Assembly: GCF_020520425.1 (NCBI RefSeq)
Contig: NC_079491.1
Span: 1,364,001-1,428,000, forward strand
DNA from: Spinacia oleracea
Lineage: Eukaryota; Streptophyta; Magnoliopsida; Caryophyllales; Amaranthaceae
Reading direction: 5' to 3'
DNA length: 64,000 nucleotides
The translations under genes were made by a program, and so were the position numbers. Positions within the stretch are counted from its first letter, which is position 1; each line of letters starts with the position of its first letter. Below are positions 9,142 through 62,796 of the stretch, piece after piece. The notes under the pieces were generated by a model that did not search any database, was not told the DNA's origin, and saw only the letters and a list, made by a program, of their open reading frames with translations.

Positions 9142-9410
9142 CACTACAAGAAATTGTACTATTAACGATGGAAAATCCCGTCGCGAAAGGTCAATAATCG
9201 TTGATTAACGACGGGATTTCCTGTCGCGAACCCGTCATAAAAGGGGGCCGTCGTTAATAGAAAATCCCGTCGTAAACCCGTCGTAAAAGACATTTGCGAC
9301 GGTTATTCCCGTCATTGTTTGGTTGTTAGCCCCGTCGCAAAAGGCTTTTGCGACGAGATTTTTGACCCGTCGTAATTAAGTTGTCGTTAAAAATACAAAT
9401 TCTTATAATC
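9142..9410. mobile_element. CACTA-type MITE, copy 2 (right end decayed)
   Basis: The left end CACTACAAGAAATTGTACTA is intact. The right end reads TACAAATTCTTATAATC instead of ...CTTGTAGTG, so the terminal CACTA motif has been lost. The interior is nearly identical in order to copy 1, with CCCGTCG repeats. Confidence 0.85.
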
Positions 9411-9993: not shown

Positions 9994-10265
9994 GACTACA
10001 AGAAATTGTACCATTAACGATAGGAAATCCCGTCGCTAAAGGCTAATAATCGTTGATTAATGACGGGATTTCCTGTCGCGAACCCGTCATAAAAGGGGAT
10101 CGTCGTTAATGGAAAATCTCGTCGTTAACCCGTCATAAAAGACATTTGCGACGGTTGTTCCCGTCTTTGTAATTGATTGTTAGCCCCGTTGCAAAAGGCT
10201 TTTGCGATGGGATTTTTGACCCGTCGTTATTAGGTTGTTAATTAAAGATACAAATTCTTGTAGTG
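9994..10265. mobile_element. CACTA-type MITE, copy 3 (left end mutated)
   Basis: The left end reads GACTACAAGAAATTGTACC (first bases of CACTA altered) and the right end TACAAATTCTTGTAGTG is intact. Flanks are GGA and GAA, an imperfect 3-bp target duplication. The interior matches copies 1 and 2. Confidence 0.85.
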
Positions 10266-10362
10266 GAAGTATGTATATCAGTATATATGTATGGACGAGT
10301 ACGTACATCAGCTGCGAAATGCTTGTGAGTGACTCAAGCGAAGACATGTGTAGCTGATAGAC

Positions 10363-22076: not shown

Positions 22077-22745
22077 TTACTACCCTAACACAAAAAGTGT
22101 AATGGTAGTATACTACTCCGTAGTATGGTACGTACACAAACATCTGTTAAAATATTTATAACATCTATGGATATTTTTTCCGAGAATAGGAAAAGTTCAA
22201 ATCATTTCGAAGTTTTGTGCATTGGACTATAGAGTAAATTCCTATACTCTTTTATGCATTTATGACTATGATGTGCATTGCAAAAGTAGAAATTGCTAGC
22301 TAGAATTTTAATTTTTTTTGGGTTTTTCCATTTTTATCCAAAAGGGTGTATTTCATAGGTTTGGTTAGTTGAGTTTCAGCAGTATACTTTTAAATGAAGG
22401 CAAACTAGCTAGCCAAGCTAGGAAAAGGGTACTTGAAGGAAAAGCCTGGCAGTCTTTTTAAAAATTTAACTTAATTAAGAAAGAAAATGGTCCAATTTTA
22501 TTAATATAATTAATTAACTTTTAAGATATTAAAGGCAACATTTTAATGATATGCATGCACATCCTTCAACACACTCCCAAATCCAATGTATCAAAATGTA
22601 GTAAATTAAAAATAACTTTATTTATATTTATCACTTGTAAATTAGTTAAAGTTTAATTGCTCTTTTCTTCCCTCAAGTTTAGGAACTTTTCTTTCCTTAC
22701 AAGTGATTTTAACTTTAATTTGCTCTTGTTCTTTTTTGTAACTTA

Positions 22746-23024
22746 CCCTACAAGAAATTGCACTATTAACGACGGGAAATCCCATCACGAAAGGCCAATA
22801 ATTATTGATTAACGACGGGATTTCCTGTCGCGAACCCGTCATAAAAGGGGGCTATCGTTAATAGAAATCCCGTCGTAAATCCGTCGTAAACCCGTCGTAA
22901 AAGACATTTGCGACGGTTATTCCCGTCATTGTTTGGTTGTTTGCCCCGTCGCAAAAGGCTTTTGCGACGGGATTTTTGACCCGTCGTAATTAGGTTGTCG
23001 TTAAAGATACAAATTTTTGTAGTG
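22746..23024. mobile_element. CACTA-type MITE, copy 4
   Basis: The right end TTTTTGTAGTG is intact and the left end reads CCCTACAAGAAATTGCAC. A perfect 3-bp target duplication TTA flanks it. The interior shares CCCGTCG repeats with copies 1-3 and carries one extra CCCGTCGTAAA unit. Confidence 0.88.
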
Positions 23025-29430: not shown

Positions 29431-32400
29431 TTATTCTAAAGATTCATAGCACTTGGGACAAAACCAGTCTTCTTCAGGTATATCCTTGAGAGGAGGATCA
29501 CAACAATCAATGTGACTACCAACACCACAACCAGTGGTACCACTCTCATTACCACAGACTAACATCACTTCCCCTCTATCAGTTAAGCCACAAATTTGAC
29601 ATGCTAAGTCATCATCATCATCACTAACCTGATCATGATCATCTGGTGGTGTTGCAGTAGCAGTAGCAGTAGCAGCAGCATCAGCAACGCCTACGACCTC
29701 TTCTGATAGGCTCGAGAGCTTCGAGAATGACTTAGCAGCCCACTCATGGGTGTTGTATTGAACGTGCCTATCGAGAGGGTATCCGGGTTTGCAAACATAC
29801 TCTACCAAGTAATCAGCCAAAACACATGGAATTTGGTGTCTGAGAAACTCTTGAACCCATATATCAACGCGTGGCATACCGGGACTAACAATGGCGAAAT
29901 CAACACCTGATTCGAGAATACGGGTGTATGGTGGAGAAGTAGCTAGGATCGTCCCATCTCCGGCTTTTATTACTCGCTTTAAGGTTTCCTGTTGTTATAC
30001 AATACAATGGCAGCATAAATGAGAACTCTACTATAAGTCTATAACAAAACTGAACAGAAAATCTTTAGGACTTTACTCTAAAGATGGATGTGGGCAAGCC
30101 CAGGTCGACGAAATAACACGGCCCGGTACTAGCACGAATTCGTGGGCCGAGGCTGGGTAGATTTTTTTTGGAAAAAGCACGACAAAGCACGCTAAAATTA
30201 GAATAATTAGGCTATTAGATCAGATTGGGCTTGGTGTGGGTGTGGGACCCTGTTTTGACCTTTTCAGCCAGACACAATGCAAAGTGGGCTTGGTGTAGGC
30301 CGGGCCCATTGAGGCCCATGAGCTCGACCCAAACCCCGCATTTAGGCCATATTTTCTATAATTATTTAGTTTGATCAGCATTCAATACATGCCTTTTATA
30401 TAGATTTTTCGTGTCTTTATCTAATTAACTACTCTTGTCACAACACATTTACCCAAATAAAAATATAATCTTGTGAAATGCACATGTTGATCAAATCGGA
30501 AAATTATAGAAAAAATTGGCCTAGATGTCGCCAAAAGCTCAATTCTTTTACAAAATTGTTGCCGCAACAAGTTTTTTTTACCAAATTGTCGTTAAGGGTT
30601 ACCTTTTTTTTTTACCAATTTGGTAAATTGGCCCCTGTTGGTCCAACTTTAGAGAAAAGAAAGCAAGAGTAATAATGTATGTTAACTTAGCAATGTGACA
30701 TCTCGAAATGGTATATGTTAACTTAGGGTTTAAGAGGAAGGGAGAATAATATCAAGAGTTTAGGAACATGGTGAAGAAGAAAGAAGAAAGAAATAATACC
30801 AAAGGTGGAGCAATGCATTCCCCGTATATTACAATTCGCATGCCATAGAAAGCACCATGACCTGTCTTCTCTCTTAGAAGGCGCCACTTCCTTGGAGCCT
30901 CGAAACTAATAGCACCATCTTCACTAAGGCCGTTCTTGTGCCACTCGAAAGGTTCCTCAGGTAAGAACTTACCGGCCTGACTACTCGCAGTTAAGTAATC
31001 AGTCTTCAAAATCCAGCTGCATTTGAACCAAATCACAGGTTAAACTTCACAGAAATAACAGATAACCTATTAGACCTGATCAAATTGTGGACTGGGTCGG
31101 GTTTGGGCCGGGGCACGACTTAAAAAATCTTCCCGTTGTGTCAGGATAGGCAGGGACGGGCCAGACTTTGGGTCGAAAATCTGCCCAAACCAGCTATTTA
31201 GGGCCATTCGGACCGATGCCAAATTTATAACTAGAAATGCAATTTTGAACTGTCCAAAACCCACACAAAAAATTAAAATTTTGGCCAGTCGGACCCGAAA
31301 ACAGGACCTGAAAATTCTGCCCAAAAACCCGTTATTTCCGGGCCAGGCCGGCCTCATGAGGCAAATTTATAACTAAAAATGCAATTTTGAGCTGTCCAAA
31401 ACCCACATAAAAAATCAAAATTTAGGCCGGTCGGGCCAGAAAACCGGGACTAAAAATTCTGCCCAAAACCCGCTATTTTCCGGGCCGGGCTCATGATGAG
31501 CAGGTCTATAATCTATAAAGGCAAAAGACTGCTAACAGTGTCGAAGATACAGAGTAATATACAAAAACATAAAAAAATAAGCTTAAAATAGGAATTTCAC
31601 CTCCCAGATGCTGCAGCAGCAAAGAACTTCTCTGTTCTGCGGATAGGTTCCGGAACAACAAAATGTGAAGCCTGATATGACCATTGATGAGAATCTCTGC
31701 AAAGTTTTCCTTTGAGACGCTTGATGAGTTGTTGGAACTCCTTTCTCTGTAGTCTATGTCCACAAAGTATGAAGTATGCAGTTTGTTGTTTTTTAACCTT
31801 TTCTAACTCAGGAATGTTTAAAGAACTTGAAATAGCTGCATCACTCTCATTGGCTGTCAAATCCGACTTACTTGTTCCATCTTTAGTTACATCTTCATCA
31901 TTATCAAAAACCGGATTACTTCTGGTACATTCATCATTTTCTTGCACCTCATTAGACTTGTTTAACACTAGAGTGCCACGCCTCTTTTTCCCCGCTATTT
32001 TACCAGCATGTTTTCCACCCTTACTTACTGCATCACTCTCATTGATTATCAAATTGGACTTAGTACTGGTCAGCTTTCCATCATCAAGATCCGGTTTATT
32101 CGCATCACCCTCATGGACTTGCACCTCAGACTTGTTTAACACCAGAGTGCCACCACGCCTCTTTTTCCCAGCTAATTTACCAGCACGTTTAACACCCTTA
32201 CTAGTATTTTGATCATTTGCAAGAACAGGTTCGTTTTCTTTGTCAACTTCCGTGGATATATCTAAGATATCAGATGCACTACTCAGCTTCCCATTGTGTT
32301 GCCCACCATCAAGAACTAACTCATTTTCCTTTTCAACAGACTTTTTTAACTGCAGAGAGCCACGCCTTTTCTTCCCACCCAACTTCCCAGGGCGTTTTGC

Positions 32401-35400
32401 AACCTTATTTGTACCTTGGTCATTACTAACACCACAGTCACTTCTATTTTCGACTTCCACATTATCTCGTGTCATGTTGAAAGAAGGGAAATTTTTACAG
32501 TCACTGTGTCCATCGCGATGTAATATTGGCTCGTTTTCATTTTCCACTTCAACAGGACCCTCTGACTTGTTTGACAGTAGACTTCCAAGCTTATTCTTCA
32601 AAGCTGATTTCCCTGTTACACCCTTATTCGCAAATTGATCATTACGAATAAGCTCATTTTCTCTTCCCACCTCAGCACGATCAATAAAAACAGATTCATT
32701 TTCTTTTTCCACTTCAACAGGCCTCTTTGACTTATTCAACAACAGAGTACTGCGCCTTTTCTTTGCAGCAGCACCAACTACTTGTTCATTCACATCATCA
32801 CTGGTTTTTCCTGCTTCAGCCTCATCTGCATCATCTTTGACGACTTCCTTTGCAGCAAGCTTAGACTTTTTCCTATCTTTCACAGCCATTTCCTTCTTCT
32901 GTGAAACCAAGTCTTCCTTCGTACCAACAATTTCAGCCACATTGAATTCATTATCCACATTGAATTCTGGTGGACCTTCAGTTTCATCATCTAAAAGTGC
33001 ATCATAGTCATTTATTTCAGTATCAGACTTCTGTTGAGGCTTAGAAGAACCCAAACCAATTGGCTCTTCTACTGTGGGGGGCACCAGAGCTTTATCAGCA
33101 GCAGGTGAAGGTGCAGTCGGCTCTTTCTTTTCCTGTCCCGCTGAGTGTATCGATACATCATCTAGAACGGGGTGTTTCTTGGCGGAACTTCTCTGAGCAT
33201 CAGCACTTCTTTTACTTACTTTAGGTCTGGAACCCAAAGTTTTTCTAGCCACCATTTTTTTCTTTGGTGGATTTGAAACAGATTTACAAGTTTGATCGGC
33301 AGACTTCAACTCCGGACTCCCAGACTTCACAGCTTCTAAGTCATTGGTGCCAGGAGAAGCATCAATAACTTTCTGCAGAGTCTGTGGTTGGCCAATTTTG
33401 TTACCAACTCCCAGTGAAGTAGAAATACTGTTGGTTTTAGGGGTGGTTGGAACATCTGTGTTCATAGGTTCACTAACTTGCAGCATCTCGAAAGCCAAAG
33501 ATCTAGAGGGACCACCATTCTTTGCATTGGACTTGGCAGATGAAACATTGGGAGATGACCTACCTGCAGATGATGTGGCAAACTCATCTTCTATTCTGCG
33601 GCCAGAATTAAGGGCACCACTTCTCTCCACAGATTTATTTACAGCAGTTCTAGGTTCTGATGCACCAACTCGTTTACTGGCTGAGGTGGTTAACTTCTGA
33701 GATTTGGGAGTAGTGTTAGAAGCATTTGAACCATCTGCAGTCCTCTTTTGCGGCAGTAAACCACCTGGGCCTTTTTCATCAAATAAACCAGCAACTGCAC
33801 TTGATGTTCCAATTTCTGAAGCAGCTTTTCCTTGGTCTGATCCTGTATTAGAAGTGCACAAGTCAGCAATCACATTTTCAGCTAAAGGCTTTTGCAACCT
33901 TTCAGCTAGATTGCTCAACTTTCCTTCAGATTTCAGGGAGAGACAAGATTTTCTCGGTGAATTTTTTGATTTTAAAGGACTACACTTGCCAGCTTTAGGA
34001 TCAGCTTGTCTTTTGGAACTTGATACTCCAAAGAAGCCTGTAGCCTCGTCTGTTTCTAGATTGAAGGTGGGCACGCCTTCAGTTGTCATTTCAGTTATTT
34101 TTTCTTCCGGCCTCTCATCTGACTTGGCAATCTTTCCTGCAGTTTGCAGGGAAGCCCTAGATCTTGGAGCTTTTCTTGAGCTTGATGGAGTTTTTCTTGC
34201 TCCAATTTTGTCCTCTGCGTCCTCTTCGACGTGCAATGGAACACTAGTTTCTTTTGAAGTCTTCTTTGAGTATTCTGAGCTATTCAACTTCTCAGCTTCA
34301 AAATCACCTGAATTCTTAGTATTTCCAGAAGTGGACGGGTGTCCTTTTCCAATCTGATTAGATGGAAGAAGTGCAGCATTTTGTCCATCAACATTATCAG
34401 ATTTAGCATCCATGTGAGACTGAGCTCTGTGGTCCTGTACATACTGCTTGCCCAACTTATTTACACTTGTAGACTCAGACAGCAAATCAGACTGCAACGA
34501 CTTTCCATCCTTTATTAATATACTGTTTGAGAATCCTTGTTGTGCAGACGAAACAGGCAACTTTCTACCAATACCAGAATAAATATGGGCTTCCCCCATT
34601 TCATTTTGCAAATTAGTGATCCCACTATTGTTTCTTCCAGTAATATCTTCAGTCTCATCTTCAGAATCTTTAGCCTCAGCTTCCATAAGATCACATTCAT
34701 AGCCACTGCAGGAGACAGAGAACCTATGTTACTAAGCTGATTTAAAGAGATTGAATAAGTAAATGAAAGTATAATAATTTTATTAAGAACAAGACAAGTG
34801 TTTCAAACTTGCAATTAAATACCATTACTATTTACTTCACATGCTAAAACAAATCCAAAATAAAGCATCATGTAACTACATATTTCATGCACAACTCACC
34901 TTGTAGTACTATACGGCTCCTCCGGAATAATTTTCCAAGCCTTTAGACTGCATAGCAAAGCAAATATCACAAAGTCAGAAAACTTTTGAATTAAGAAACA
35001 GTACCCGTGGATGTTTAAGACCACATTTGAAGTACAAGATTTAGACATACCAATCAACCACCCACTGATGATTTACGATTTTTGTAAGATTCATTTTCTT
35101 AGCCAGATCATACTTCTCCCCTGTGAAGAGAGAAAATAATCTTGTCATCTAGAACTTGTTCAGCCAAGCAGATTACATATATGAGTACACGTTTTATACC
35201 ATGTTAGCAAAAAGATTGTTTTACTTCCATATCTAAGAGCTGAAAAGAAGATGTAAATAAAGTTCAAATTTTCAAAATGTCCACTCTTATATTCAGGCGT
35301 GAAGAAAATCAAAGCAAGTGATGCTTACAAGTACAATAGCTAAAGAATTTGTGCCTTAAAATGTGGAACAAACTGAGTTTGTTAAATCTGAAAAGACCAG

Positions 35401-37875
35401 GAAGTGCACCCCAAAATAAAAACTACTATAAGACGAGTACTTTGTATGTAATTTGTGACAGCTGATATAGGAGTCTGACCAGTTACTTGTGTATATATCG
35501 TCATATGACTCATATCCTACCAGCCTAAAGATAATTCTCAAAATTTCACAAGGAAGACCAAATGTTTTGTAGACTAGTACGGAGTATATTCCACATGTCA
35601 TCATTTAACACAAAATCTCAAGACACGTAAGTTTCTACACTAAGGAAAGTAGCTCATAAAAAGACAACAATTCATGAACCAAAAGCTTTTATTCTAATAG
35701 CATATTTGACAGAAGATCACATGCAATGCACAAGCTACCTGCGAGTGAAATCCAAAAGAAGTACGGAGTAATCAACATCATCATCATGCAAACATCATAT
35801 AACAATTGCAGAACAGACTCCATTGACCAGAACATGATTTACTGATGAGAGGAAGGGAGTGTGAAATTGTGATGCCTAACCTTCAAACTTGTAGCATATA
35901 AGGTGAGTAACTCTTTTCACCACCAGTGGTTTAGAAATCTGGGCTCCCATTACGCTCACCATCATCTAGGAATAAACCAAAAGTTAAATATTAGATACAC
36001 CCTATAGGATGAAGTGATCCATATTCTATAATCATCAATGACATACCTTCAAGTCTTCCCTAGGCAAGCCCTGGTATCCGGTCAAGCAGATAACAAGCTC
36101 GTTAGCACCAGGAATTCCAGTCAGCGCCTTCGGTGGCTTATACAGAATCTGTGAGTAAACATGAAACCAATTTAATGTCACTTCATGAAAAGGCACATTC
36201 AGCAAAATGAAGAACAAATTTGAGCTAGGTCTAGGACAGGTCAAATGCGCAAAACTGCCGCAAGAAAGAAATTAAGAAGCAACAGAAGATAATATAAATT
36301 AAAAAAAGAGCTAAATGACAAGTAGTGATTCACTGGTCATGAACTCATGATCCAATACATTACAGGCCCTCTCATGCTCACGGCAATATGTCCAAACTGT
36401 TAAGAGCAATTGAAATATTTTGACACATCAAACTAAGAACAAAGGCGAATAAGAAAGAGTGAAGAAACTTACATTGCCAATGCCCAACAGCTCTCCGTAT
36501 TCTAAACTATCATTAAGCCACACATTTGTTACAACCGTCTTCCCATCCCTTCTGGCAGTAACACAAATAGGATCATCCTACATAGAACGAAAAAAGGAAA
36601 TAATTACACATATAGAAAGAAAAAAAGATTGAGGGATTGAATATTCGAGCAAAGATAAATTAAGTTTAGATGTCAGCGAGACACGAAATCAATAAAGGAA
36701 AGATCACACACACACACCTCAATTGCAACAAGAATTCATTAACAATTGAGTAACTCTAACAATCTCACATTTGCATCCATATTTAACTTGTATCTCACAA
36801 CTTTTGCATCACCATGCAACATACTGAAAACGGGGATGGAAATTGTACTACTGAAATGTCCTCACAGAAGCACAAACTCTATAAGGGTGTGTTATATTCA
36901 ACTGATTTTCACTTATTTCTTCTGACCTTAACTGAACTTACTAGAACTTATCAAAACTTATTTTAGTTATGAATTGACTTGGTCAACCCTTATTTTTCCT
37001 AAACTTATCTTATCTGAACTTAACTGAACTTATTTTTCCTGAAATAAGTGGAAATAAGGTGAAAAGCCTAAGATGGAGAGTTGAAAAATAGTAGCCAAAA
37101 ATGCAATTGTACACAGGTAAATCACTAAACCTAACAAGACTCTGTGTAACTAAGCTTAGGTAGTTTTGTTTAACACCGATACATGTCCAATTGTAAAAGT
37201 GGCCATTTTACGATAAAAACCTTTTTTGGTATAATATCCATCCCAATTCTCAAGTGCCTTAAACATGTTGGAGTGTAAAATCCAAGAACCCGAGTTTCAC
37301 TTAGCAGATCAAACAAAGTCCTCCTAAACCACAACACATATTACATATTTACATCACAAGCACCGCCAAATTTGTAAAGAACTTCTTCTAACTCTCAAAA
37401 TTACACCTTTTGTTTCACCCGCATCAATCTTTCCCTATATTCTACTCCAATTGAATTGTTTAAGCATCAAAATTAAGCTTTTCAATTAGCAAAATTCCAA
37501 TTAACCTCGTCTTTATTTCAACTTCTCTAATTTTCATGCTTAATCAAAAAAATACAAACATAAATTTTACTTTAAAAAAATGCAAAATAAAATGGAGAGA
37601 GAGAGAGTACTAGGGCGATGTTTTGGACGACGACGTGAGTGCAATCCGGACTGTACTCATCGAAAACAACTCCTCCTTCACTTATAATCCTCGACTTATC
37701 CTGTCAAAAATATAAAATTAAATCCATCAGAATACGAAATTATTGAAAATAATAATAATTAAAAAAATAGCTAGAGAGAGAAAATTATATAAAAATAAAC
37801 CAGGAGGTATTGTTGAGGGGTGAATCCGGCGAGGAATAAGCGGAGTCCGAAGAAAATTGATGAACCGTACATCAT
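29431..37875 (-). CDS. BRCT domain and PHD finger protein (At4g02110-like)
   Basis: Ten exons read on the minus strand: 37801-37875, 37611-37700, 36473-36577, 36047-36148, 35881-35965, 35051-35120, 34900-34947, 31601-34705, 30800-31016, 29431-29988. All joins keep frame and give 1484 residues. Two BRCT repeats are at the N-terminus (about 5-90 and 100-190; TNVWLNDSLEYG, VNHQWVVDCLKAWK). A long, Lys/Ser/Glu-rich, probably disordered middle is encoded by one 3.1-kb exon. Two BRCT-like units follow (about 1158-1245 and 1290-1370), then a C4HC3 PHD finger (about 1429-1479: CQICG...HIDCCDPPL...DWFCPKC). BRCT pairs bind phosphoproteins and PHD fingers bind histone tails, so a nuclear chromatin or DNA-damage role is inferred. 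The architecture matches Arabidopsis At4g02110, whose protein is somewhat shorter in my memory. hAT-type elements sit in the last two introns. Confidence 0.93.
30079..30355. mobile_element. TAAAGATGG-family hAT-type element in the last intron of the BRCT/PHD gene
   Basis: It starts TAAAGATGGATGTGGGC and ends near GGCCATATTTT. The inner blocks (ACGGCCCGG, AAAAAGCACGACAAAGCACG) are the family sequence in inverse order to the 38144 copy. The flanks CTTTACTC and CTATAATT agree at only 5 of 8 bases, so the duplication is doubtful. Confidence 0.6.
31071..31508. mobile_element. hAT-type element in the intron between exons 8 and 9 of the BRCT/PHD gene
   Basis: Ends TAGACCTGATCA and GAGCAGGTCTA are inverted; flanks TAACCTAT and TAATCTAT agree at 7 of 8 bases. 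The interior contains two copies of a CTGTCCAAAACCCACA..AAAAT block (about 31250 and 31393), an internal duplication. It is longer (438 bp) than the ~180-bp relatives. Confidence 0.75.
36884..37067. mobile_element. MITE in intron 2 of the BRCT/PHD gene
   Basis: GTTATATTCAACTGATTTTC on the left and AAATAAGTGGAAATAAGGTG on the right match the element at 8681-8909. Interior CTTATCTGAACTTA units are shared. Confidence 0.6.
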
Positions 37876-38008
37876 TTTTACAGAGGTTTTTTGAGGATTT
37901 GATTATGGCGGAAAGAGAGAGAGAGGGAGAGGAGAGAGAAAATGGAGAAATGAAGTTGCAGTGCTGGGGAAGATTTGGGGGTTTTTTGAAATTTTGGGGT
38001 TTACTACT

Positions 38009-38015
38009 GGCGGGA
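38009..38015 (-). promoter_or_regulatory. GGCGGGA motif upstream of the BRCT/PHD gene (E2F-like, weak)
   Basis: Read on the minus strand, TCTCCCGCCAG lies about 135 bp upstream of the start codon. It resembles but does not strictly fit the plant E2F site TTTSSCGC/TTCCCGCC. The same ACTACTGGCGGGA block is kept 132-138 bp upstream of the duplicated copy (49183-49195). Confidence 0.25.
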
Positions 38016-38143
38016 GAATAAAAAATTGAGAATTCAGGATTTTAAGAAACTAACACGTGGATTCTTCTCGAACTCTGTGCATTCCCGGTTAGAGCTGAGT
38101 TGTTGGGTTGTGTAGGCCCTTGTGTTTGTGCCGTACTTGTGAC

Positions 38144-39667: not shown

Positions 39668-40140
39668 CCGATTACACCCGATCTGTATTATACAGATAAT
39701 CTGATTTGACACCCCTTTGTCAAGTCTTTTATGACACTTTTAAGTCAAACGGCTGTCATCTCGTCAAAATGTAACAAAAAGCCAACCTTCAAGCACGTGA
39801 AATTAACTAAAACCGCTAAATTTTCATTTTACGCGCTTCTTTGAAATTTCAAAAATATTTCAGTTTCCAAATTTTGAATTTTAACGCAAAAATATCAAAA
39901 CCCCCCTTTCTTGTTCCTTTTGCTCTCATTCTCTCACCTCTTCTCCGCCCATTTTCTCTCTCATCTCTGCAAATCTGGAGAATAATCAAGCAACAAGGCG
40001 GTCGAATCTCCGGTGATTTTTATCAACACCCATCAATTTCAGGTACTCCCCCCTAGAAAACCCTAATTTTAGATTTTCATATCTAAGCTCGTTTCATCTT
40101 TAATTCGAATTGAATTGAAACCACAAATTGAAGTAAAATC

Positions 40141-41973
40141 ATGGTTAGAGAGCAAAAGGTTGAGGCATTTTACTCAAAATTACGTGATTCGGCTTTACAA
40201 GTGTCAAATTATTCCCCAGAATTATTTGATTCTGCTGCAGCTTCATCCCCTTTGTTAATCTTCCCTTCCACTTCAGATGTAGATTCTCTATGTGCGCTGA
40301 AAATTGTTTTTCATATCCTTGAATCGGATTCTATACAATATGCTTGTTACCCCGTTTCGTCGTTTGAAGAGATTCATAAGTATTTGGAGCCTAGTTTGAG
40401 CTTATCTCCTGATATGCCTCTCACATTGCTGCTTATAAATTGGGGTTCTCATAGGGATTTGAGGAAGTTGTTGAGTTTGTCTGAAACGATGCGTGTTTTT
40501 GTTGTTGATAGCCATCGTCCTATTCATTTGCATAACTTGAGTGATGGGAATGATAAGGTGGTTGTCCTTTATACTAAGGATGATGAAGAACAAGCTGATT
40601 TGACCTATGATTTCGATATTTGGCAGTTGGCTAATGTCAGTGATTTGAATAGTGATGATGAAGGTGGAAATGAGAGTGATGATGATGAGAGTGAGAATGA
40701 TAGTGACAGTGATGAGGAGGAAAGAGAAGAAGATGGTGATGGTCTGAATAGGAAGAAGAGGAGGGTTTCAGATGAGGGAGAAGCTGACCCAGATAAGCTT
40801 TTTAGGAGGTTGAAGAAACAGTATTATCAAATGGGTACTTTTCATGGTAAACCATCTGGGTGTTTGATGTATGATTTGTCACATTCGTTGAGGAAAAACA
40901 CAAATGAACAGCTATGGTTAGCTTGTGTGTCGATAACTGATCAACTCGTACATGAGAGGTTAACCAATGAGAGGTACCAAGCTGGGGTTATGGAGCTTGA
41001 ACAGCATATCAATGGTCTTGGTAATTTAGATGCTGTTACCTCAGTAACTCTGAAAGACGGGACTAAAATTCGCGCACCTGAATCTTCTAGGATTGCGTAT
41101 GAGGATGAACCGAGGTTGATGCTGTTAAGGGAGTGGAATTTGTTTGATTCAATGCTGTGTTCTTCTTACATAGCGACAAAGATGAAGACTTGGAGTGATA
41201 ATGGGATGAAGAAGCTTAAACTTCTGTTGGCTAGGATGGGATTTGCACTTATTGACTGCCAACAGAAGTTCCAGTACATGAATATTGATGTTAAGAGGAA
41301 AATGAAGGATGAATTTGAGAGGTTCCTGCCAGAATATGGGCTCAATGATTTCTACTACAGAAGCTTTATGCGGCTTCATGGGTATAGCTCAAGAGTTTCA
41401 GCTGCAGATGTTGTATATGGGGTCACTGCCCTTTTGGAGTCGTTTGATGGTTCTAATTCAAAAAAGTTAGGGTTTGGGGTAGCCTATGATGCATTGTCAT
41501 TGAACAACTTAGATCAGTTGAGGATTGGAATGCAGAACGCAATAAAGGTACAACGAGCCATTCTTAGACAAGGAAGCACGGCTATAACCAAAAGGGGTTC
41601 AATAAGAAGTGGAAGGAAATTCAGGTGGGTTAAACTCGAAGATTCAGTAGACACAAAGCTATTAGGGTATCCTCAAGCATTGACTAAATTCTGCTATTTT
41701 GTGATGGATGCATTGAGAGAGAAAGGTGCAAGAATGAAGCCTTTGTTGTGTGCTTGTTGTTTAACACAGGAACAAGATAAAGTGTTGATTGTTGGTGTTA
41801 CAGGGAAGCCTCGACTTGGTGCAGTACAAGGTAATGCATTTGGTATGGCTTTCAAGAATGCAGCACAGGAGATTGGTGCTGAATTCTTCCACGAGCTTTT
41901 CGAATCATCGTGGATAATCTTAGATAAGGTTGCTGTCAATTCTTTCATGGTCAGGTTAACTGAAAAACTATAG
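40141..41973 (+). CDS. CDC45: Cell division control protein 45 homologue
   Basis: A single uninterrupted reading frame of 610 residues, the usual length of CDC45. CDC45 joins MCM2-7 and GINS to form the CMG helicase that unwinds DNA at replication forks in the nucleus. Visible family marks are the N-terminal DHH-phosphoesterase-like core (TSDVDSLCALKIVFHIL about 44-60; VVDSHRPIHLHNL about 121-133), an acidic loop (about 168-200), a basic KKRR patch (205-208) that may act in nuclear import, and a conserved C-terminal half (...KPLLCACC...). The start is the first in-frame ATG after a 5' leader rich in CTC/TTC. No intron is seen in the coding part. It is divergent from the BRCT/PHD gene and lies between that gene and its truncated duplicate. 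Confidence 0.97.
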   Translation: MVREQKVEAFYSKLRDSALQVSNYSPELFDSAAASSPLLIFPSTSDVDSLCALKIVFHILESDSIQYACYPVSSFEEIHKYLEPSLSLSPDMPLTLLLINWGSHRDLRKLLSLSETMRVFVVDSHRPIHLHNLSDGNDKVVVLYTKDDEEQADLTYDFDIWQLANVSDLNSDDEGGNESDDDESENDSDSDEEEREEDGDGLNRKKRRVSDEGEADPDKLFRRLKKQYYQMGTFHGKPSGCLMYDLSHSLRKNTNEQLWLACVSITDQLVHERLTNERYQAGVMELEQHINGLGNLDAVTSVTLKDGTKIRAPESSRIAYEDEPRLMLLREWNLFDSMLCSSYIATKMKTWSDNGMKKLKLLLARMGFALIDCQQKFQYMNIDVKRKMKDEFERFLPEYGLNDFYYRSFMRLHGYSSRVSAADVVYGVTALLESFDGSNSKKLGFGVAYDALSLNNLDQLRIGMQNAIKVQRAILRQGSTAITKRGSIRSGRKFRWVKLEDSVDTKLLGYPQALTKFCYFVMDALREKGARMKPLLCACCLTQEQDKVLIVGVTGKPRLGAVQGNAFGMAFKNAAQEIGAEFFHELFESSWIILDKVAVNSFMVRLTEKL

Positions 41974-43087
41974 TATAATTGTTGGAATTTCTTTTTCCTC
42001 ATATATTGTACTGTACTGTACTACTAGTGATTTACAATGAATGGGAATTTCTTTTTATTGGCTATATATGTAAACATGAATTGAGTCAAGCGGCTAAATG
42101 TTATAACTTATAAGTGTGGTTGGTGTCCGAATCTATGTTGAGATATGTCATTCAACTTGTCAGACACAAATTGCAAGTTAGAAATAGCAATTTAATTGCA
42201 TCCCAAGTTGGAAGAAAGTTTCTGAATTTTTTTAGTCTAGATAACTTTGGTTGCAGGATTTTGTTGATCAAATTTTGGCTTTTCTTGTTGATGATTAAGG
42301 TAGGTGTTCTAGTTACCACCCTTAATTTATAGTATTATTTTTTCAAGTATGAGATGAATAAGCTACGGCTAAGTGCAACCTGTACTTGTGTGTTGGAGTG
42401 CTTTGTGGTTGATTTAGATTCAGTTTACAAGTTGAGGTTGGCTTCTCTGCTCAAATAAGTGAAATTTACTTGCATAATTTTTTATTTACTATTTACTATT
42501 CATTCAGTTCAATTCAACCAAATAAAGCTAAGAAGAACAGGGCCAAATAAAAGATAATCAAGACAAACACAAATTCGAGTATGAATTCAAAGATGAATTG
42601 ATATTGCCGGAGAAATTTTAATAACGGATAAAAATAACTTAAATTGAAATACAATGAAGAATTCTTGATTACAATTTACAAGTGCATTATGAATCAATGT
42701 TATCATGAAATACAAAAGTTTGGCCTAGCGGTAAAGGTTTGGCCTCATAACCGATCTCAAACCCCATTAGGGGTCTCTTTGAAGGTGATATTTCCCTTAT
42801 AATCAACTCTCACTTCCAATAAGTCAGACTTATATTCAAGATTCTGATTTTCGGGGATGTCTTTTCTTCGGTAGGAGATTATGTATCGTTTTTCCTTTTT
42901 TTAAAAAAAGAAAATTACTCTTTTGTCGATGAGTTGTTCACCTATGAGACTGTCATACACGTAACACAACTGATGCCATCATTACTAATCAATTTGTTTG
43001 ACTTGTTGATAGCTATGGTACCTTGACTTTGCCATGTAAGCATTTACCCCTAATTTTGCAAATTAGCCTCAGGTAGCATCAAATAAC
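41974..43087. other. CDC45 downstream flank
   Basis: It contains the CDC45 3' UTR and AT-rich spacer. A possible tRNA-related SINE trace lies at 42718-42900 (TGGCCTAGCGGTAAAGG followed by GATCTCAAACCCC) but lacks a convincing tail or target duplication. No other gene is supported. Confidence 0.5.
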
Positions 43088-43336
43088 ATTCATAGCCACT
43101 ACAGGAGACAGAGAACCAGTATGTTACTAATGATGATTTAAAGAGATTTACATTCTTAGAAAATTTCCAATTTAAAACATCATTTAAACAACATGATTTC
43201 ATGCAACAATTTACCTTTTAGTACTATAAGGTTCCTCTGGAAGAATTTTCCAAGTCGCCAGACTGATACCAAAGCAAATATCACCAAGTCAGGAAACCTT
43301 TGACAGTTAACAGTTAAGAAACAACATCCATGGACG

Positions 43337-43618
43337 TAAAGATGGCTGTGGGTCGGGTCGGGCTGAGCCCATGGGCCAGAACGGCCCCGTCACACTCTGA
43401 ATCGTGTTGGACTGACCAAGCCTAAAATTTCAAAACACAGGCCCACTGGCTGGTCGGTCCAACACGACTCAGAGTGTGCTGGGTCAAGTCGTGTCTTGTT
43501 GTGTTTTTTACAGAAAAATACGGCCCAAATCCGGCCCCAAACCTTCTTGCTCGTGTTGGATCGGGCTTTTTCGTGCTGGGTCAGATTAGGCCTGAGGGCC
43601 GGCCCACAACCATATTTA
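43337..43618. mobile_element. TAAAGATGG-family hAT-type element, first of an adjacent pair
   Basis: It starts TAAAGATGGCTGTGGGTCGG and ends GCCCACAACCATATTTA. Flanks CATGGACG (43329-43336) and CATGGAAG (43619-43626) agree at 7 of 8 bases. It lies in the pseudogene intron between exons 6 and 7. Confidence 0.85.
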
Positions 43619-43626
43619 CATGGAAG

Positions 43627-43917
43627 GAAAGATGGATGTGGTCCGACCCAACACGACCACGAAGCCGTGGGCTGAGCCAGTGCCAATTTTTTTGGGAAAA
43701 AGCACTACAAGGCAAGGCATGAAAAAGCACGCTAAATTTAGTAAAATAGGTTTATGCACAATGGCCCGACCTAGCCCGTGGGCATGCGCCCTGATTTGAA
43801 CTTTTCAGCCCAGTCTGACCCGCCACGAAGGCGAGTGGGCCTGGCTCGGGCCCGATCAAAGGAAGCCCGCCGCCGTGGGTTCGGTACGACGCTCAACCCG
43901 GCCCACGGCCATCTTTG
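43627..43917. mobile_element. TAAAGATGG-family hAT-type element, second of an adjacent pair
   Basis: It starts GAAAGATGGATGTGG and ends GGCCCACGGCCATCTTTG. Exact flanks CATGGAAG lie at 43619-43626 and 43918-43925; the left one is also the right flank of the preceding element. The internal order is inverted relative to its neighbour. Confidence 0.85.
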
Positions 43918-44632
43918 CATGGAAGTTTCTTGACCAAATCTGAAGTACGGAGTACAAGATATAGACATACCAATCAACCAACCATTGATGATTGACGATT
44001 TTTGTAACATTCATTGCCTTAGCCAGCGCATACTTTTCCCCTGTGAAGAGAGAAAATAATCTGTCATCTATAGAACTTGTTCAGCAAAGCATAATACAGT
44101 TATACAGTTATGCTGGCAAAAAGATTGATTTACTTTCATACCAAAAAGAGTTGAAAAGAAGATGTAAAGGAAGTTCATGTTTTCAAAATGTCCCACTCTT
44201 ATTCAGCAATGAGCAAAAGCAAAGCAAGTAATGCTTACGAGTACAATAGATAAGGATTTGTGCCTTAAAAATGTGGAACAAATTGAGCTGTTGAATATAA
44301 CTCCGTCTCCGACCCACCTCTATTCGAACTCGAAATTTTTGAAACGGATTCGGACTCAGATTATATTTATCGGATTCATTTTACTCGGATTGGGTCGGAT
44401 TCGGATTATTTTAGCATTTAAAATCACAAAATGAAGAGTTTTAAAACATTCTAACGTAATTTTAAAATATTTGTTGATGAGGTGGCAGTAGTAATCGGAT
44501 TCGGGTCGGATTTTTCACAAACTCCACCTCCTGCAGGGTTCTGATCGCATTTTTACTTTTTCGAATTTGGATTGGATTTTTTTTGTCAAATCGAGTCGGA
44601 CTCGGATCGGATTCGGACTGAATTGCCATACC

Positions 44633-44808
44633 CAGTGGCGGATCTTTGTGATGGCTGGGGTGGGCCTGGCCCCCCCGGCCGAAATTTTTTGTAGTGTATT
44701 TTTAGTTACGGCCTCCTAAAATTTGTGTATAATTGTATAATTACATAGTATAATGCTTAATTTTTCTCTACCGGCCCCCCTCATAAAACCGTTTAAGATC
44801 CGCCACTG
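44633..44808. mobile_element. hAT-type MITE with CAGTGGCGGA ends
   Basis: Inverted ends CAGTGGCGGATCTT and AAGATCCGCCACTG are flanked by an exact 8-bp duplication GCCATACC (44625-44632 and 44809-44816). It is 176 bp without coding. A relative lies at 62113-62292. Confidence 0.93.
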
Positions 44809-44903
44809 GCCATACCCTAAGCCCAGGAGGTGCACCCTAGAAAAGAAAAGTACCATAAGATGACTATTTTGTATGTCATCTATGACAACAAAATATAGGA
44901 GTC

Positions 44904-45991
44904 TGTTAGAGATATGGAAATATTAGAGACGGAAAATAGAATTAATACACTGATAAACTTTCCATATTAATAATAGAATATGGTTAAAGATAAAGGTAAG
45001 AAATAATTCCAGCATAGTACAAATTCTAGAGGTAGAGCTATATTTAAGTTATGTTTCCTAATATGAGTTGGAATAAGTTTAGGAAACTATTGTATTATAT
45101 GTATATACTTTGATATTATATATTTACACAAGAGCTAAATTTCCGGTGAATTTTGCAACGATGACTTCCATAACTTCCGTTGAATTAAACTATCTAATTT
45201 TCCGATATCTTCAAGAATCAGGGTTTACACACTCTGCTTTTTCTTTAGGGTACGAGGCTGGAATCAATAAGTGCACCATAGATGGCAATTTAGTTCCACC
45301 AAGTGCTCTGGTTACCTTTGTGCAGAAAGGGATACAGTACTTGGAAATTGAAGCTAACTTGAATAATAATAGTGATGATGATAATATGGATGAAGATTTC
45401 TCATTTATACAGCCTATATATCTTCTCACTAAGGATGTGAATGAATTGCATCGAATGGTTGAAGAAAAGAGGAGAAGTTCTAGGAAGGATAAGGAGAAAG
45501 ATCATGTTAAGGATGATGAAGAAGGAAAAGAGAAAGATGAAAAGGGTGCAAGAGAAAGTGATGAAAAAGCTATAAACGAGAAGGATGGAAAATATGGTAT
45601 TAAGAGCTCAGGGAGATGGACCGTCTATAAAAAACGTGCTAGTGGATTAGAAAAATAAATCTAATGGCGAGATTTATGGTTAATATAATATTTCCGATGT
45701 GAATAATATGGAGTAGTAAAAGATAAGTATGTGTTGGAGAAAAGACTCGTACTTCTGAGTTTAGATTAGTTTTGCTCCAAAACATCAATGACGGGTTAAG
45801 CATGATTTTGAAAGGTAAAATAGAGTATTTTTACTTTTTCAATTTGTATCGCTCGGATGTGTTACGAAAGAATTAAGAATTGATTATAGCCTGTATAAAT
45901 CTAGAGGTAGAATTGTATTTAAGTTATGTTTTCTACTATTGTATGGTTAATGAGAAAGGGTGAGAACTTGAGATTGAGAGTAATATTGTCA
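44904..45991 (+). mobile_element. Small LTR-type (Copia-like) element carrying a LisH gene fragment
   Basis: It begins TGTTAGAGATATGG and ends GTAATATTGTCA (TG...CA). Flanks GAGTC (44899-44903) and TAGTC (45992-45996) differ at one base, as a 5-bp retroelement duplication would. Comparison with the parental gene intron near 35470-35500 (ATAGGAGTCTGACCAG) shows this stretch is an insertion. The two end regions share a block (TCTAGAGGTAG..T.TATTTAAGTTATGTTT near 45035 and 45900) expected of LTRs, though they are otherwise diverged. Before the ORF, a CAAGAGCTAAATTTCCGGTG leader resembles a Copia PBS/leader from memory. No gag or pol is present; the interior is the ORF at 45161-45658. Confidence 0.65.
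45161..45658 (+). pseudogene. Intronless HOS15/TBL1-like LisH-domain fragment
   Basis: A 165-codon open frame from the ATG at 45161. The first ~100 residues resemble the N-terminus of HOS15 (plant TBL1-type WD40 corepressor subunit): TSVELNYLIFRYLQESGFTH is the LisH helix pair, followed by a GYEAGI, VPP.AL, FVQKGIQYLE, EDFSF and TKDVNEL order. A highly charged Lys/Glu/Asp stretch follows and the frame ends in unrelated-looking SGRWTVYKKRASGLEK. All WD40 repeats are missing. LisH domains mediate dimerisation in histone-deacetylase corepressor complexes; a LisH-only product could in principle titrate partners, which is speculation. An upstream in-frame ATG at 45110 lies in element sequence and is less likely to be the start. 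Lack of introns and the LTR-type surroundings point to capture through RNA. Confidence 0.8.
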
Positions 45992-46016
45992 TAGTCTTAC
46001 CACTTAACAGTGTGCA

Positions 46017-46035
46017 TATATATATATATATATAT
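46017..46035. repeat. (AT)n microsatellite
   Basis: About nine AT units in the pseudogene intron, next to the LTR-type insertion. Confidence 0.8.
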
Positions 46036-46555
46036 TTTCACATCCTACCAGCCAAAGGAAGATTTTCATAATTTCAAGGAAAACCAAATGTTTGTAGACT
46101 ATGAGATCAGGTAGGTATGGGTTCACAACTCACTACCTAATTTTATGGTTCACTTTTTTTGGTTCGCGGTTCATGGTGTGTTTAGGGAATTAGGTAACAC
46201 TTTCTACGATAAAGGATAAAGTAGCTCATGAAACAGAAAACAATTGATGAACCAAAAGGTTTTATTCTAATTACACATTTGACAGACTAGCTAACTGTAA
46301 CTGCGAGTGAAATCCAAAAGAAGTAATCATCATGTAAACAACATAGTTATACCAATTGCAGAATAGACTACATTGACCATAACATGATTTACTGAGGGGA
46401 GGAAGGGAGATTGATAAAGTTGTTGCTAACCTTCAAACTTGAAGCATATAAGGTGAGTAACTCTTCTCGCCACCAATGGTTTAGAAAGCTGGGACCCCAT
46501 TAGTTGCACCATCGTCTAAGGAAAAACAAAAAGTAAAATATTAGATACATTTACT

Positions 46556-46849
46556 TTAGAGCAAAATCAATGGGGTCTTGTTTTAAGAATTTTTTTAAAT
46601 GCCATGTCTCTTCACCTCTCAAATTTATTCAACATTTGTAAGTTTATGTACAATATTATTTTATTATTTAGTTCAACTCATACACTGAGTCTTATGTCGA
46701 GTCTTGGTTTTTTAAGACTCAATTTAAGGCTTTCCCAAGACTCATTCACTTCAATGCTCCACTTTCTTTGCCTGATTTTAAGACTAAATGAGTCATATGC
46801 CATGTCAGCACAACTGAAGTCTTGAAACTTGTGGCTGATCATGCTCTAA
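46556..46849. mobile_element. MITE with TTAGAGCA ends in pseudogene intron 4
   Basis: Left TTAGAGCAAAATCAATGGGG and right GATCATGCTCTAA are inverted; inner GTCTTG repeats recur. A 3-bp ACT flanks both sides. Probably a PIF/Harbinger-like non-autonomous element. Confidence 0.65.
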
Positions 46850-47148
46850 ACTCAACAACTAAGCAACTCAAGATGGGAGAGAGGGATACTTGATGAAATG
46901 TACACATACCGTTATGTCTTCCCTCTGCAAGCCCTGGTATCCAGTCAAACAGATAACAAACTCATTAGCACCAGGAATTCCAGTCAGCCCCTTCAATGGC
47001 CTATACAAATTTTAAAATCTGTGAGTAAACATGAAACTAATTTAATGAGACTTCAAGAGAAATAGGCACATTGAGCGAATTCAAGAACAAGTTTGAGCTA
47101 GGTCAAAGCTAAATCAAACGAGAAGAACTACAACAAGAAAGAAATTAA

Positions 47149-47449
47149 GGCTCCGTTTGGTAGGGTGTAAACGTTTTCATGGAAAACGATTATCCCCTTT
47201 TTAATCATTTTACATTGTTTGGTTTGGCAAGGGATGGAAAATAATTTTCTATAACTCTCTCAAAGGTGGAAAAACATTTTCCATTTGAAAGGAAGGGAAA
47301 CTACTTTTCCATTTTTCCTCCCTACCTCCATCTTCCTTTTCCCATCAATCTTCAACCAAACAAATGAAAAGTTGTTTGGAATTGTGTTTTTCTTTGGAAA
47401 AAAAATTTCATTTTTCATTGAAAAGTTTTACGCCAAATCAAACGGAGCC
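47149..47449. mobile_element. Tourist-like (PIF/Harbinger) MITE in pseudogene intron 3
   Basis: Ends GGCTCCGTTTGGTAGGGTG and CGCCAAATCAAACGGAGCC are inverted, with a TAA target duplication on both sides (47146-47148, 47450-47452). 301 bp, no coding. Confidence 0.9.
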
Positions 47450-47714
47450 TAAGGAGGAGCAGCAGATAATAGCTCAAACCATAACAAGCTATATTCACTA
47501 GTCATGAACTCATGAACACATACATAACAGGCCCTCAGATGCTCACAGAATTGTGCCAAACCTGCCCATACTGTTAAGAGCAATTGATAAATTTTGACAC
47601 ATCAAATCAAACTAAGAAAGAGTGAAGAAACTTACATTGTCAATGCCCATCAGCTCTTTGTATTCTAAACTATCATTAACCCACAAACGTGTTACAACCG
47701 TCTTCCTATCCCTT

Positions 47715-48400
47715 CTAGCAGTAACACAAATAGGATCATCCTACACAGAATGGGTAAAGAAAACAATTATACATATAAAAGAATAAATGAAGGATTGCAT
47801 ATTCAAGCAAACGTATGAAAAGTTCATACACACACCTCATTTGCAACAAGAAATCATTGAAAGTTAACTCTTACAATCCCAGCATTTGCATCTATATTCA
47901 AACTATATCCATAACTTTTGCACCACCATGCAACATACTAAAAATGGAGATGGAAATTGTACTACTCAAAGGTCTCCAACAAACCTCTCATAAGCAAATT
48001 TATCCTTTTCATTTTCCAATAAATAAGTTCAGTAAAACCTAAGTAACACAAATAGGATCATCCTACATAATTACACATACAGAAAAATAAATGAAGGTTT
48101 GAATATTCAAGCAAACATAAAACAAGTTTAGATGTCAACTAGGCACAAAATTAATAAAAGAAAAATCACACACATACACACACCTCATTTGCAACAAGAA
48201 ATCATTAACAATTGAGTACTCCTAACTCTTACAATCCCAGCATTTGCATCCAAATTCAACCTACATCCATAACTTTTGCACCACAATGCAACATACTAAA
48301 AATGGGGATGGAAATTGTACTACTCAAAGGTCTCCAACTAACCTCTCAGAAGCAAATTTATCCTTTTCATTTTCCAATAAATAAGTTTCAGTAAAACCTA
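47715..48400. repeat. Tandem duplication inside pseudogene intron 2, including part of exon 3
   Basis: A ~330-bp block repeats (about 47715-48040 and 48042-48400). The second copy includes AGTAACACAAATAGGATCATC, the 5' part of exon 3 on the minus strand, and its acceptor. Both copies share ATTTGCAACAAGAAATCATT, CAATCCCAGCATTTGCATC and GGAAATTGTACTACTCAAAG blocks. Confidence 0.8.
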
Positions 48401-50083
48401 AAAACTCGAATTCTATAAGGTGGAGAGCTGGAAATAAGTAGTCTAAGAATGCTCCATTTTACCAAGAACCAACAATGACTTGTACATGTCCTATTGCAAG
48501 AATCGCCATGTTACAAATTCATGTTTTTGGTAAAACAATTAACCTAGGTGCCCCAAACATGTTAGATTTGAGAATCCATAAACCCAAATTACACATTTCT
48601 CTTTATCCTAATCCATCTCTCTCCATATTCTACTTTAATTGAATTGTTTAAATGTCAAAATCAAGTTTTTTAATTCAACAAATTTACAATTAGCTTCATC
48701 TTTATTTCGCCTTTCTAATTTTCATGCTTAATTAAAAAAAAGTACAAACAAAAATCACAAAAAAGTGCAAAATAAAATTAACAGAGAGAGAGAGTACAAG
48801 GACGAGGTTGTGGACGACGACGTGAGTGCAATCAGGACCGTACTCGTCGGTAATAACTCCTCCTTCTCTTATAATCATCAGCTCATACTGTCAACAATAC
48901 GTAATATCAAATTAATCTCCATGAAAACACGAAATTGAAGAAAACAAAAAGAAGTTAGCTAGAGAGAGAAAATTAAAAAACAAACCTGGAGGTGTTGTTG
49001 AGGGGTGAATCCGGCGAGGAAGAAGCCGATTCCGGAGAAAAGTGATGAACTGTGCATAAATTCTACTGTTCTACACATTGTATGTAGAATTGAAAATGGC
49101 GGAAATAGAGAGAGAGAAGAGAGAGAAAAATGGAGAGATGAAGAAGATTTGGGTGTTTTTTCTTTTTTGAAATTTTGGGGTTACTACTGGCGGGATAATT
49201 CGGTCATTTGTGTATGCGTTACCCATAGAGTTTGACATGCCGGGCCGGGTCGGGTCGCGCCGGGCCGGTAGGAGACGGTTTGAACCTGGTATCAAGGTAT
49301 GAAATTGGTCCGACAGATTGACACGGTGCGAACCTATTGTAATCCAGTGTGGCATGAGAGGCAAGTCGGTGGGCCATAGGTCGTTCATGAACATTATTTT
49401 AAAAATTTGACACGAGTCTGGTATAAGTACGCGGTTTGGCAGCATATAAGCACACTTATTTTAACTAGTTAGCAAACATAGGGACTCGCTGGTGTGACAC
49501 GACTCGGACCGCCACGTGGGTTAAGTTGTGCTTATGCTTCATTATGGAAGATATGTACGAGTCTGACACGACACGACTTTTTCTTGGCCTGTTCCAGACA
49601 CTAGGCACGCGGGATCTGAGACATGCCCTATTCTTACCCATTGTTTTGTCAATCTTCTGTTTTCTACTACACGTACCCCATCAAGCCACAGCTCATCACA
49701 ATACATGGTTATCGACTTAACGTTCATTTAACATAAATGCAAGACATAGATGTGTAATCCAATTCTTTCATACAACATCCGAAAAATACGTGATCCTTCC
49801 CACACCTTTTGTAACGATGTCACAAATGTGAACCTTGTTACAAAAATTTCAACATCTATATATATATTTTTTGACATTGAAACAACATCTATAGATAATA
49901 AAAAAAACAAAAAACAAAAAGAAAACAAAAAAAACAACAACAACATCTATAGATGATCAATTGATCATATACGATTACACGGAGTATCAATTTTTTGAGA
50001 AGCGACATGGACTAGGTTGTCCAGCTTGACCATGAACATCCACGTCAATACCAACTTTAGCAACAATCAAAGGCGTAGAAATT

Positions 50084-62112: not shown

Positions 62113-62292
62113 CAGTGGCGGATGTTAGTTGTGCTTAGGGTGGGCCCAATTCCTAGACTGAAACTTTTGTAGTGTATTTTTAGTTAAGCGTACCCCTAAA
62201 ATTTGTGTATAATTGTATAAATTACATACTACTACATATTGCTTAATTTTTCTACTGATCTCCCTCGTAAAACGGTTTAAGATCCGTCACTG
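62113..62292. mobile_element. hAT-type MITE with CAGTGGCGGA ends, second copy
   Basis: Ends CAGTGGCGGATGTT and AAGATCCGTCACTG; the interior TTTTGTAGTGTATTTTTAGTTA and AAATTTGTGTATAATTGTAT match the 44633 copy. Flanks CTCGTATT and TGCATATT agree at only 5 of 8 bases, so this copy is probably older. Confidence 0.85.
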
Positions 62293-62796
62293 TGCATATT
62301 GCCCGCAATGCTTAAGGAGTCGAATAATATATGGTCCATATTAACCTACATGGCTATATGGATGAAAATTGGATCCAAATAACATGAGAAAATCATGTGA
62401 AATAGGAAAAGGGATAAGAGACACATCGTTGCTGCATCAACTTCTTTTGTTGGATAGTAGGGCATTTGATTTGTGAGTCAAAGTTTATCTTTGTATTTTA
62501 ACTCTTTAGCTTGAACCCCAGCTAAGCTTTTTGGGGTACAATTTTGGATTTGGATGTTCTAATGGGACAAACAACATGTCTCTAACTAGTGTCAAGAGCT
62601 TGGAGTTGGCTTTGAATTATTCATAGTCATAGGCTCATAGCTCGTACATTACAAAAAGTACCCGTTACGTGGAAAGTCCCTGTTACGGGACATCAATATG
62701 TGTTCTAGGTGCACGTAAGAGTAATATCTTTAATGATCTTTAGATCCTGGTTGAAAATGATAAGAGATTAAATGATGTAATGAGGCAACTAATATC

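Follow-up and report, generated by a model that had tools for sequence, protein, structure and literature searches.

What brought part of a host gene into the 1,088-bp insertion that occupies positions 44904-45991 of the window, the 64,000-nucleotide stretch of Spinacia oleracea DNA analysed here? An initial annotation, made from the letters alone, had read the insertion as an LTR-type element with a captured fragment of a HOS15/TBL1-like gene. The LTR-type insertion and the spliced host piece proved well supported, and the element probably captured the piece through its own reverse transcription. The insertion itself is established by a tandem paralogue within the window, which lacks it and carries at the corresponding position a single GAGTC (35471-35475) followed by TGACCAG. 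The paralogue reads ATATAGGAGTCTGACCAG at this empty site; the occupied site runs from ATATAGGAGTC through the element (TGTTAG...TTGTCA) to TAGTCTTACCA. Since the paralogue holds one empty site, 44904-45991 is one insertion with a 5-bp target duplication, mismatched at one base (GAGTC versus TAGTC), and both the TG...CA ends and the near-exact duplication described initially are borne out. This comparison used only the alignment around the insertion site. The near flanks share 73% and 78% identity with the paralogue and two farther stretches 82% and 85%, with K between 0.17 and 0.34 over the four stretches, and the insertion should be younger than the tandem duplication that made the paralogue.

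The insertion sits in an incomplete tandem duplicate (about 43-49 kb) of a BRCT-domain gene, in which a twin-BRCT match falls under Pfam's cut-off; the gene's fuller copy (BRCT E 2.3e-5), on the minus strand, spans about 31.6-38 kb. These minus-strand duplicates (31600-38019 and, partial, 43063-49199) flank a CDC45 gene on the plus strand (40132-41970) that matches its profile over the full length. About 500 bp to the left of the element (about 44300-44815) occur in the window copy only and are missing from the tandem paralogue; the right part of this stretch (44633-44814) has a 77% copy at 62113-62298. Elsewhere, the window contains a minisatellite of about 8.7 copies of a 77-bp unit (15488-16138) and four copies, 85-91% identical, of a dispersed repeat of about 280 bp (7793-8075, 9141-9413, 9995-10270 and 22745-23024).

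Within the insertion, a LisH domain (Pfam E 2.3e-9) is encoded by a long open reading frame (ORF), whose product also has a match to the TBL1X N-terminal domain (E 3.8e-22). It thus shares the N-terminal LisH domain of the HOS15 and TBL1 corepressor subunits, but lacks their C-terminal WD40 repeats: a Pfam scan of the ORF up to E 1 returned LisH alone, with WD40, gag and pol absent. The host piece consists of 21 nt of 5'UTR and codons 1-144, covering the LisH domain, an acidic stretch and the start of a K/E-rich region, within whose coding sequence it ends at GGATGGAAAA; alignment with the parent gene revealed no poly(A) at this 3' end. The frame is open over 165 codons, as first described, but its last 20 or so codons are element leader sequence rather than HOS15.

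A search of the genome (894,210,420 bases in 242 contigs, of which C1-C6 span 115-189 Mb) with the element yielded 48 matches among the best 40 of 79 candidates. Among these, the HOS15 coding stretch recurred only on contig C3 (147692631-147696317), in separate blocks of a HOS15/TBL1-like gene, the intron-containing parent that the initial annotation had suggested looking for. A protein search, with five of five candidates scored, returned the window and two exons of this parent. The parent starts with an ATG at position 4649 of locus L021 and has exons at 4649-4709, at 7425-7570 and from 7698 on, bordered by GT...AG; WD40 sequence follows downstream in L022, where one stretch scores 40.3 bits, above the Pfam cut-off, and another 21.5 bits, below it. 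Relative to this gene the host piece is spliced, in agreement with the intronless N-terminal fragment without WD40 repeats proposed at the outset: introns of 2,715 bp and 127 bp are both exactly absent, leaving exon junctions at 45221/45222, which is gapless, and at 45367/45368, beside which the copy has 6 extra in-frame bases. Between short repeats, the copy is on balance 66 bp shorter with its frame preserved (the codon alignment shows 23 codons missing and one added), and its protein shares 87% identity with that of the parent over residues 20-71 and 68% over residues 72-124. Segmental DNA duplication of the HOS15 locus, in which copy and parent would share flanks and introns, is ruled out because both introns are exactly absent, and the parent lies on another chromosome-size contig; we give it next to no weight.

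Table 1. Features of the insertion and its target site (window coordinates).
Feature	Position	Strand	Basis
Left target-site duplication, GAGTC	44899..44903		Sequence and paralogue empty site
5' LTR, TG... to about ...ACA (probable end)	44904..45128	+	Matches to LTR-like genome copies
Ambiguous 12 bases, first primer-site remnant or HOS15 5'UTR	45128..45139	+	9/12 to each
HOS15-like 5'UTR end	45140..45160	+	Alignment with parent
HOS15/TBL1-like codons 1-144, spliced	45161..45592	+	Alignment with parent, Pfam and TBL1X matches
ORF, 165 codons and stop	45161..45658	+	ORF list, Pfam scan
Primer-binding site (TGGTATTAAGAGC...) and leader of element family	45595..45810	+	Matches to at least 35 genome places at 70-80%; reading against L028, L030, L033, L034 and L035
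3' LTR remnant, ends ...TTGTCA (start approximate)	45811..45991	+	Match to 5' end and C5 copy
Right target-site duplication, TAGTC	45992..45996		Sequence and paralogue empty site

Both ends of the insertion resemble LTRs. The 5' end (44904-45130), which includes a TATA-like stretch at 45096-45107, has five genome relatives that match it over part of its length at 76-81%, namely C5:9892109 (77%), C4:20342919 (76%), C6:42841547 (79%), C1:19191978 (81%) and C6:67870289 (78%); by eye, a Copia-like 3' end and G-rich tract precede the C1 copy. For the Copia fragment L056 on C1, no 5' LTR partner bearing a primer site was found. The 3' end matches C5:9892134, a relative common to the 5' end, and one LTR-like copy (C5:9892109-9892252) is matched by both ends. 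Compared directly, the two ends reached a local score of 67 under stricter scoring, against a maximum of 34 among 500 pairs of first-order random sequences, and under looser scoring 50.5, barely above the random maximum of 48.5 (500 pairs). The shared block reported in the initial annotation is therefore real, and the outcome that would have spoken against an LTR element, ends with no LTR homology, did not occur. The 3' remnant is missing the start of the LTR as well as the family's polypurine tract; judged by eye against the tract of four of five relatives described below, the tract has apparently been deleted.

That the ends are diverged had been noted, but the divergence was understated. 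Although the best 68-bp block is 81% identical, over a core of 107 aligned bases K amounts to 0.41 between the two ends, compared with 0.25 between the 5' end and the LTR-like copy L023 and 0.24 between the 5' end and L043, and only 18 of 2,000 bootstraps placed the ends closer to each other than either to L023. Restricting the comparison to the best-aligned 85 columns gave K of 0.29 for the ends, 0.22 for the 5' end and L023, and 0.32 for the 3' end and L023. The ends are, as far as their sequences tell, too diverged for a clean LTR pair; the excess may stem from a mosaic origin, from misalignment or from a 3' end that has decayed faster. With K spanning about 0.22 (best 68 bp) to 0.41 (core), we abandoned dating by the LTR pair. 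The closer affinity of the 5' end to L023 and L043 over the core, together with the bootstrap result, would fit ends that are pieces of two different LTR copies, joined by recombination or by reverse transcription from several templates. We regard this as unlikely: both ends lie within one common 5-bp duplication and correspond to a single empty site, and the comparison covers about 100 bases with several gaps, in which the best block remains as similar as stated above. At L023 itself, the relative of the 5' LTR (4570-4778; C5:9892069 on) lies directly before an F-box ORF (4802-5552). The place could be a second neighbourhood of LTR and host gene, but a capture there was not upheld, as the F-box ORF seems broken and neither a leader nor a second LTR was found in 9.9 kb; part of the stretch after the LTR piece matches a high-copy repeat (best 40 of 1,156 candidates).

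The position of the host piece became apparent from the element's family. All or part of 45594-45754 recurs at 70-80% identity in at least 35 other genome places. At 16 of 18 such loci examined, an LTR-like end directly precedes the primer site, in one of them (L013) with a base changed; the start of the primer site is lost at L007 and L031. A direct-repeat partner lies downstream at 14 of the 18 (only 43 bp long at L031), and none was found in the stretch examined at L005, L006, L007 and L012. Five relatives (L028, L030, L033, L034 and L035) are short LTR elements that measure 927-1,608 bp and have terminal repeats 183-194 bp long and 95-100% identical; in all five, the primer site TGGTATC directly follows the LTR's final CA, and in four, judged by eye, the 3' LTR is preceded by a G-rich tract and by a remnant that looks like the RNase H end of Copia. 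A young-looking short LTR family was also seen at 11 loci on several contigs (L008-L011, L013-L018 and L020), with 190-bp stretches 97-100% identical between the ends and an inner duplication in L011/L030.

In the window, the corresponding primer site, TGGTATTAAGAGCTCAGG, which presumably fits initiator methionine tRNA, starts at 45595, directly after the HOS15 codons. Because the LTR end adjoins the primer site in the relatives and HOS15 intervenes in the window, the host piece is located after the 5' LTR and ahead of the primer site, and the established order of parts is 5' LTR, HOS15, primer site and leader, 3' LTR remnant. Two details of the initial annotation change accordingly: the leader and primer site, which it had placed before the ORF, have their clear copy 3' of the HOS15 piece, and the 3' end repeat, which it had extended over 45733-45991, cannot start at about 45733. 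The stretch 45733-45810 is internal leader in L028, L030, L033, L034 and L035, as comparison with L033 and L028 illustrates, so the 3' LTR remnant spans about 45811-45991. The 12 bases at 45128-45139 can be read in two ways, matching the family primer site and the parental 5'UTR at 9 of 12 positions each, a level attained by 0.9% and 1.0%, respectively, of 5,000 random 35-bp windows. Under the first reading, HOS15 stands between two copies of the primer site, an arrangement compatible with a double template jump and also with a LINE-type insertion that duplicated its target; under the second, U5 of the 5' LTR has disappeared or given way to other sequence.

We favour, with a probability of roughly 0.6, an origin in which an old, now degraded, short non-autonomous Copia-type (TRIM-like) LTR element joined a spliced HOS15/TBL1-like mRNA between its 5' LTR and primer site during reverse transcription. 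Ordinary replication yields two matching LTRs, and any host sequence situated between R and the primer site in the RNA would end up in both of them. The absence of the HOS15 piece from the 3' end consequently points to a late minus-strand jump at the primer site or to an insertion after integration. For the former, we infer that spliced host mRNA was packaged with the element; minus-strand synthesis would then have passed the leader and primer site to the end of the template, switched there to the HOS15 mRNA within its K/E-rich part, proceeded along this mRNA to near the 5' end and jumped back to an element RNA, on which the LTR would have been completed. Such an order of jumps would leave the host piece beside the 5' LTR only and out of the 3' LTR, and the DNA, presumably with the host piece already inside, would have integrated into the partial BRCT-gene copy and generated the 5-bp target repeat. 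That plant LTR elements undergo abnormal template switching has been suggested before (PMC1950507, PMC13317346). Capture is favoured by the empty site with its target duplication, the match of both ends to one C5 copy, the two exactly missing introns, the architecture of the family and a host piece that ends within the coding region, without poly(A), and adjoins the primer site; the unclean end pair, set against the K of 0.17-0.34 of paralogue flanks whose duplication the insertion should postdate, and the missing polypurine tract speak against it, as do the possible two primer-site copies around HOS15, which also fit the target duplication of a later insertion.

Such a later insertion is the most serious competitor, although we consider it doubtful. 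Here, an internally primed, LINE-type retrocopy of HOS15 mRNA would have landed in the primer-site region of a pre-existing LTR element, making a target duplication of about 15-19 bp with primer-site sequence on either side, and the element would be the landing place only. The fragment does run from 21 nt ahead of the ATG to an A-rich part of the mRNA (GGATGGAAAA), and the 12 bases before it resemble the primer site; these bases fit the parental 5'UTR equally well, however, and by eye no TTAAAA-like target was seen at the junctions. Landing exactly at the border of LTR and primer site would moreover be a coincidence, and the piece has no poly(A) tail. Dicot retrocopies with LINE-type hallmarks, including candidate target-site duplications of 13-17 bp, are described in PMC4838847, as are tailless L1 retrocopies in mammals, so, on this account, the missing poly(A) is not decisive.

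Copy number also weighs against capture. A second HOS15-bearing element was not found among the best 40 of 79 nucleotide candidates or the five of five protein candidates, nor was an amplified family of such elements, the only other place with the coding stretch among the scored candidates being the parent. Several copies with the same junctions would have indicated that the host piece moved with the element; a single copy among the scored candidates gives no sign of joint movement with the cargo. As to its class, the insertion shares with TRIM elements its length of 1,088 bp, a long ORF without gag or pol match and small LTRs, and its relatives measure 0.9-1.6 kb. We call it TRIM-like only, because it has no clear primer-binding site next to the 5' LTR (the site lies at 45595 instead) and no polypurine tract. 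At present, it is most likely a decaying relic.

Exon capture by short LTR elements is known; its placement here, between 5' LTR and primer site, is unusual. The closest counterparts are 30 TRIM elements in seven subfamilies from soybean and Medicago with captured exon fragments (PMC4717578), which resemble the spinach element, as far as described there, in size (1.17-1.45 kb versus 1.09 kb), intron-free exons, two end repeats and a 5-bp target-site duplication. According to the same source, however, their cargo is internal, whereas the spinach host piece precedes the primer site, and at least two copies exist of every subfamily except two, compared with one copy among the scored candidates here. 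Maize Bs1 is likewise an LTR element with host gene fragments (PMC13317346), exons only (PMC4717578), but it is described as combining three genes into a chimeric gene that is transcribed and translated (PMC13317346), whereas the spinach element carries a piece of one gene, set before its primer site. Host genes inside LTR elements were also reported in rice (672) and sorghum (1,343), some of them under purifying selection; the abstract of that study gives no placement between LTR and primer site (PMC3726574). Finally, a host piece placed 5' in a retroelement recalls 5'-transduction, of which, according to a review, a plant example has never been reported (PMC13317346). Unlike in 5'-transduction, the spinach host piece lies inward of the 5' LTR rather than upstream of it, and it is therefore not a simple read-through product. 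Among the listed titles and abstract openings on HOS15, TRIM capture, LTR retrogenes, template switching and microproteins, none reported capture of HOS15 or LisH by a mobile element. The cargo's absence from the 3' end, pointing to a late reverse-transcription jump, suggests a specific and testable way for a host ORF to come to lie directly behind an LTR promoter.

The initial annotation had considered a LisH-only protein under LTR control conceivable. Such a protein is possible, and so is a function of the ORF, which could, if expressed, interfere with a histone-deacetylase corepressor as a ready-made fragment of it. The TBL1 N-terminal domain forms a tetramer and binds SMRT and GPS2 (PMC3315023), and the HOS15-PWR-HDA9 complex is described as the plant counterpart (PMC9853073). 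If the ORF is transcribed from the LTR, its product could join HOS15 complexes without contributing WD40 repeats, and since HOS15-type complexes act on histone acetylation, an element carrying such a microprotein could, if this were true, weaken silencing. A working mini-gene, in which the LTR would supply promoter and poly(A) signal and the LisH-only protein would dampen the corepressor by entering HOS15 tetramers as a dominant-negative microprotein, is compatible with either origin, but we judge it improbable. Its full form, with capture on the 5' side at the primer-site step and a dominant-negative effect in the HOS15-PWR-HDA9 silencing complex maintained by purifying selection, would be more improbable still. 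The 165-codon frame is open, no ATG lies between the TATA-like stretch and its start, and the LisH score of the copy (37.3 bits versus 37.5 in the parent) is practically unchanged, as is its TBL1X match (82.0 versus 81.7 bits). On the other hand, a stop-free frame arose by chance with a frequency of 0.34-0.58 in simulations, and a single copy is present among the scored candidates.

Constraint was assessed by dN/dS against the parent, as had been proposed, over 124 of the copy's 144 HOS15 codons, leaving out gaps and the ambiguous K/E repeat. The 15 synonymous and 16 nonsynonymous changes correspond to dS of 0.239, dN of 0.056 and a ratio of 0.23 (0.13 for codons 1-69 and 0.52 for the remaining codons), with 10, 3 and 18 changes at codon positions 1, 2 and 3. 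The low overall ratio, its still lower value in codons 1-69 and the scarcity of second-position relative to third-position changes would suit a mini-gene; the ratio after codon 69 would not. We ran 12 simulation settings with 400 accepted runs each. In the four settings with a neutral copy and a constrained parent, P was 0.065, 0.033, 0.128 and 0.083 for the whole piece, so that neutrality was not rejected at 0.05 in three of four, and 0.015, 0.007, 0.020 and 0.015 for codons 1-69, a subset picked after seeing the data that can therefore do no more than hint at mild constraint. Simulations with a copy omega of 0.5 fit the data (P 0.38-0.71 for the whole, 0.08-0.24 for codons 1-69), and with an omega of 0.2, 90-99.8% of runs had a nonsynonymous share no higher than observed, which disfavours strong constraint over the whole piece. 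The substitution pattern is thus a weak hint of possible mild constraint on the ORF.

Residues at the binding interface were compared using the positions given for TBL1 (PMC3315023). Those matching Glu7, His23, Phe26 and Glu61 are kept in the copy according to the alignment, in favour of a functional protein, but the positions of human Ile30 and Glu68 differ, and do so alike in copy and parent. With human TBL1X as a distant outgroup, the six differences between copy and parent at positions 3-69 look like one change in the parent (12) and two in the copy (51 and 58), with three ambiguous, and the copy agrees with TBL1X at 38 of 67 positions, the parent at 39.
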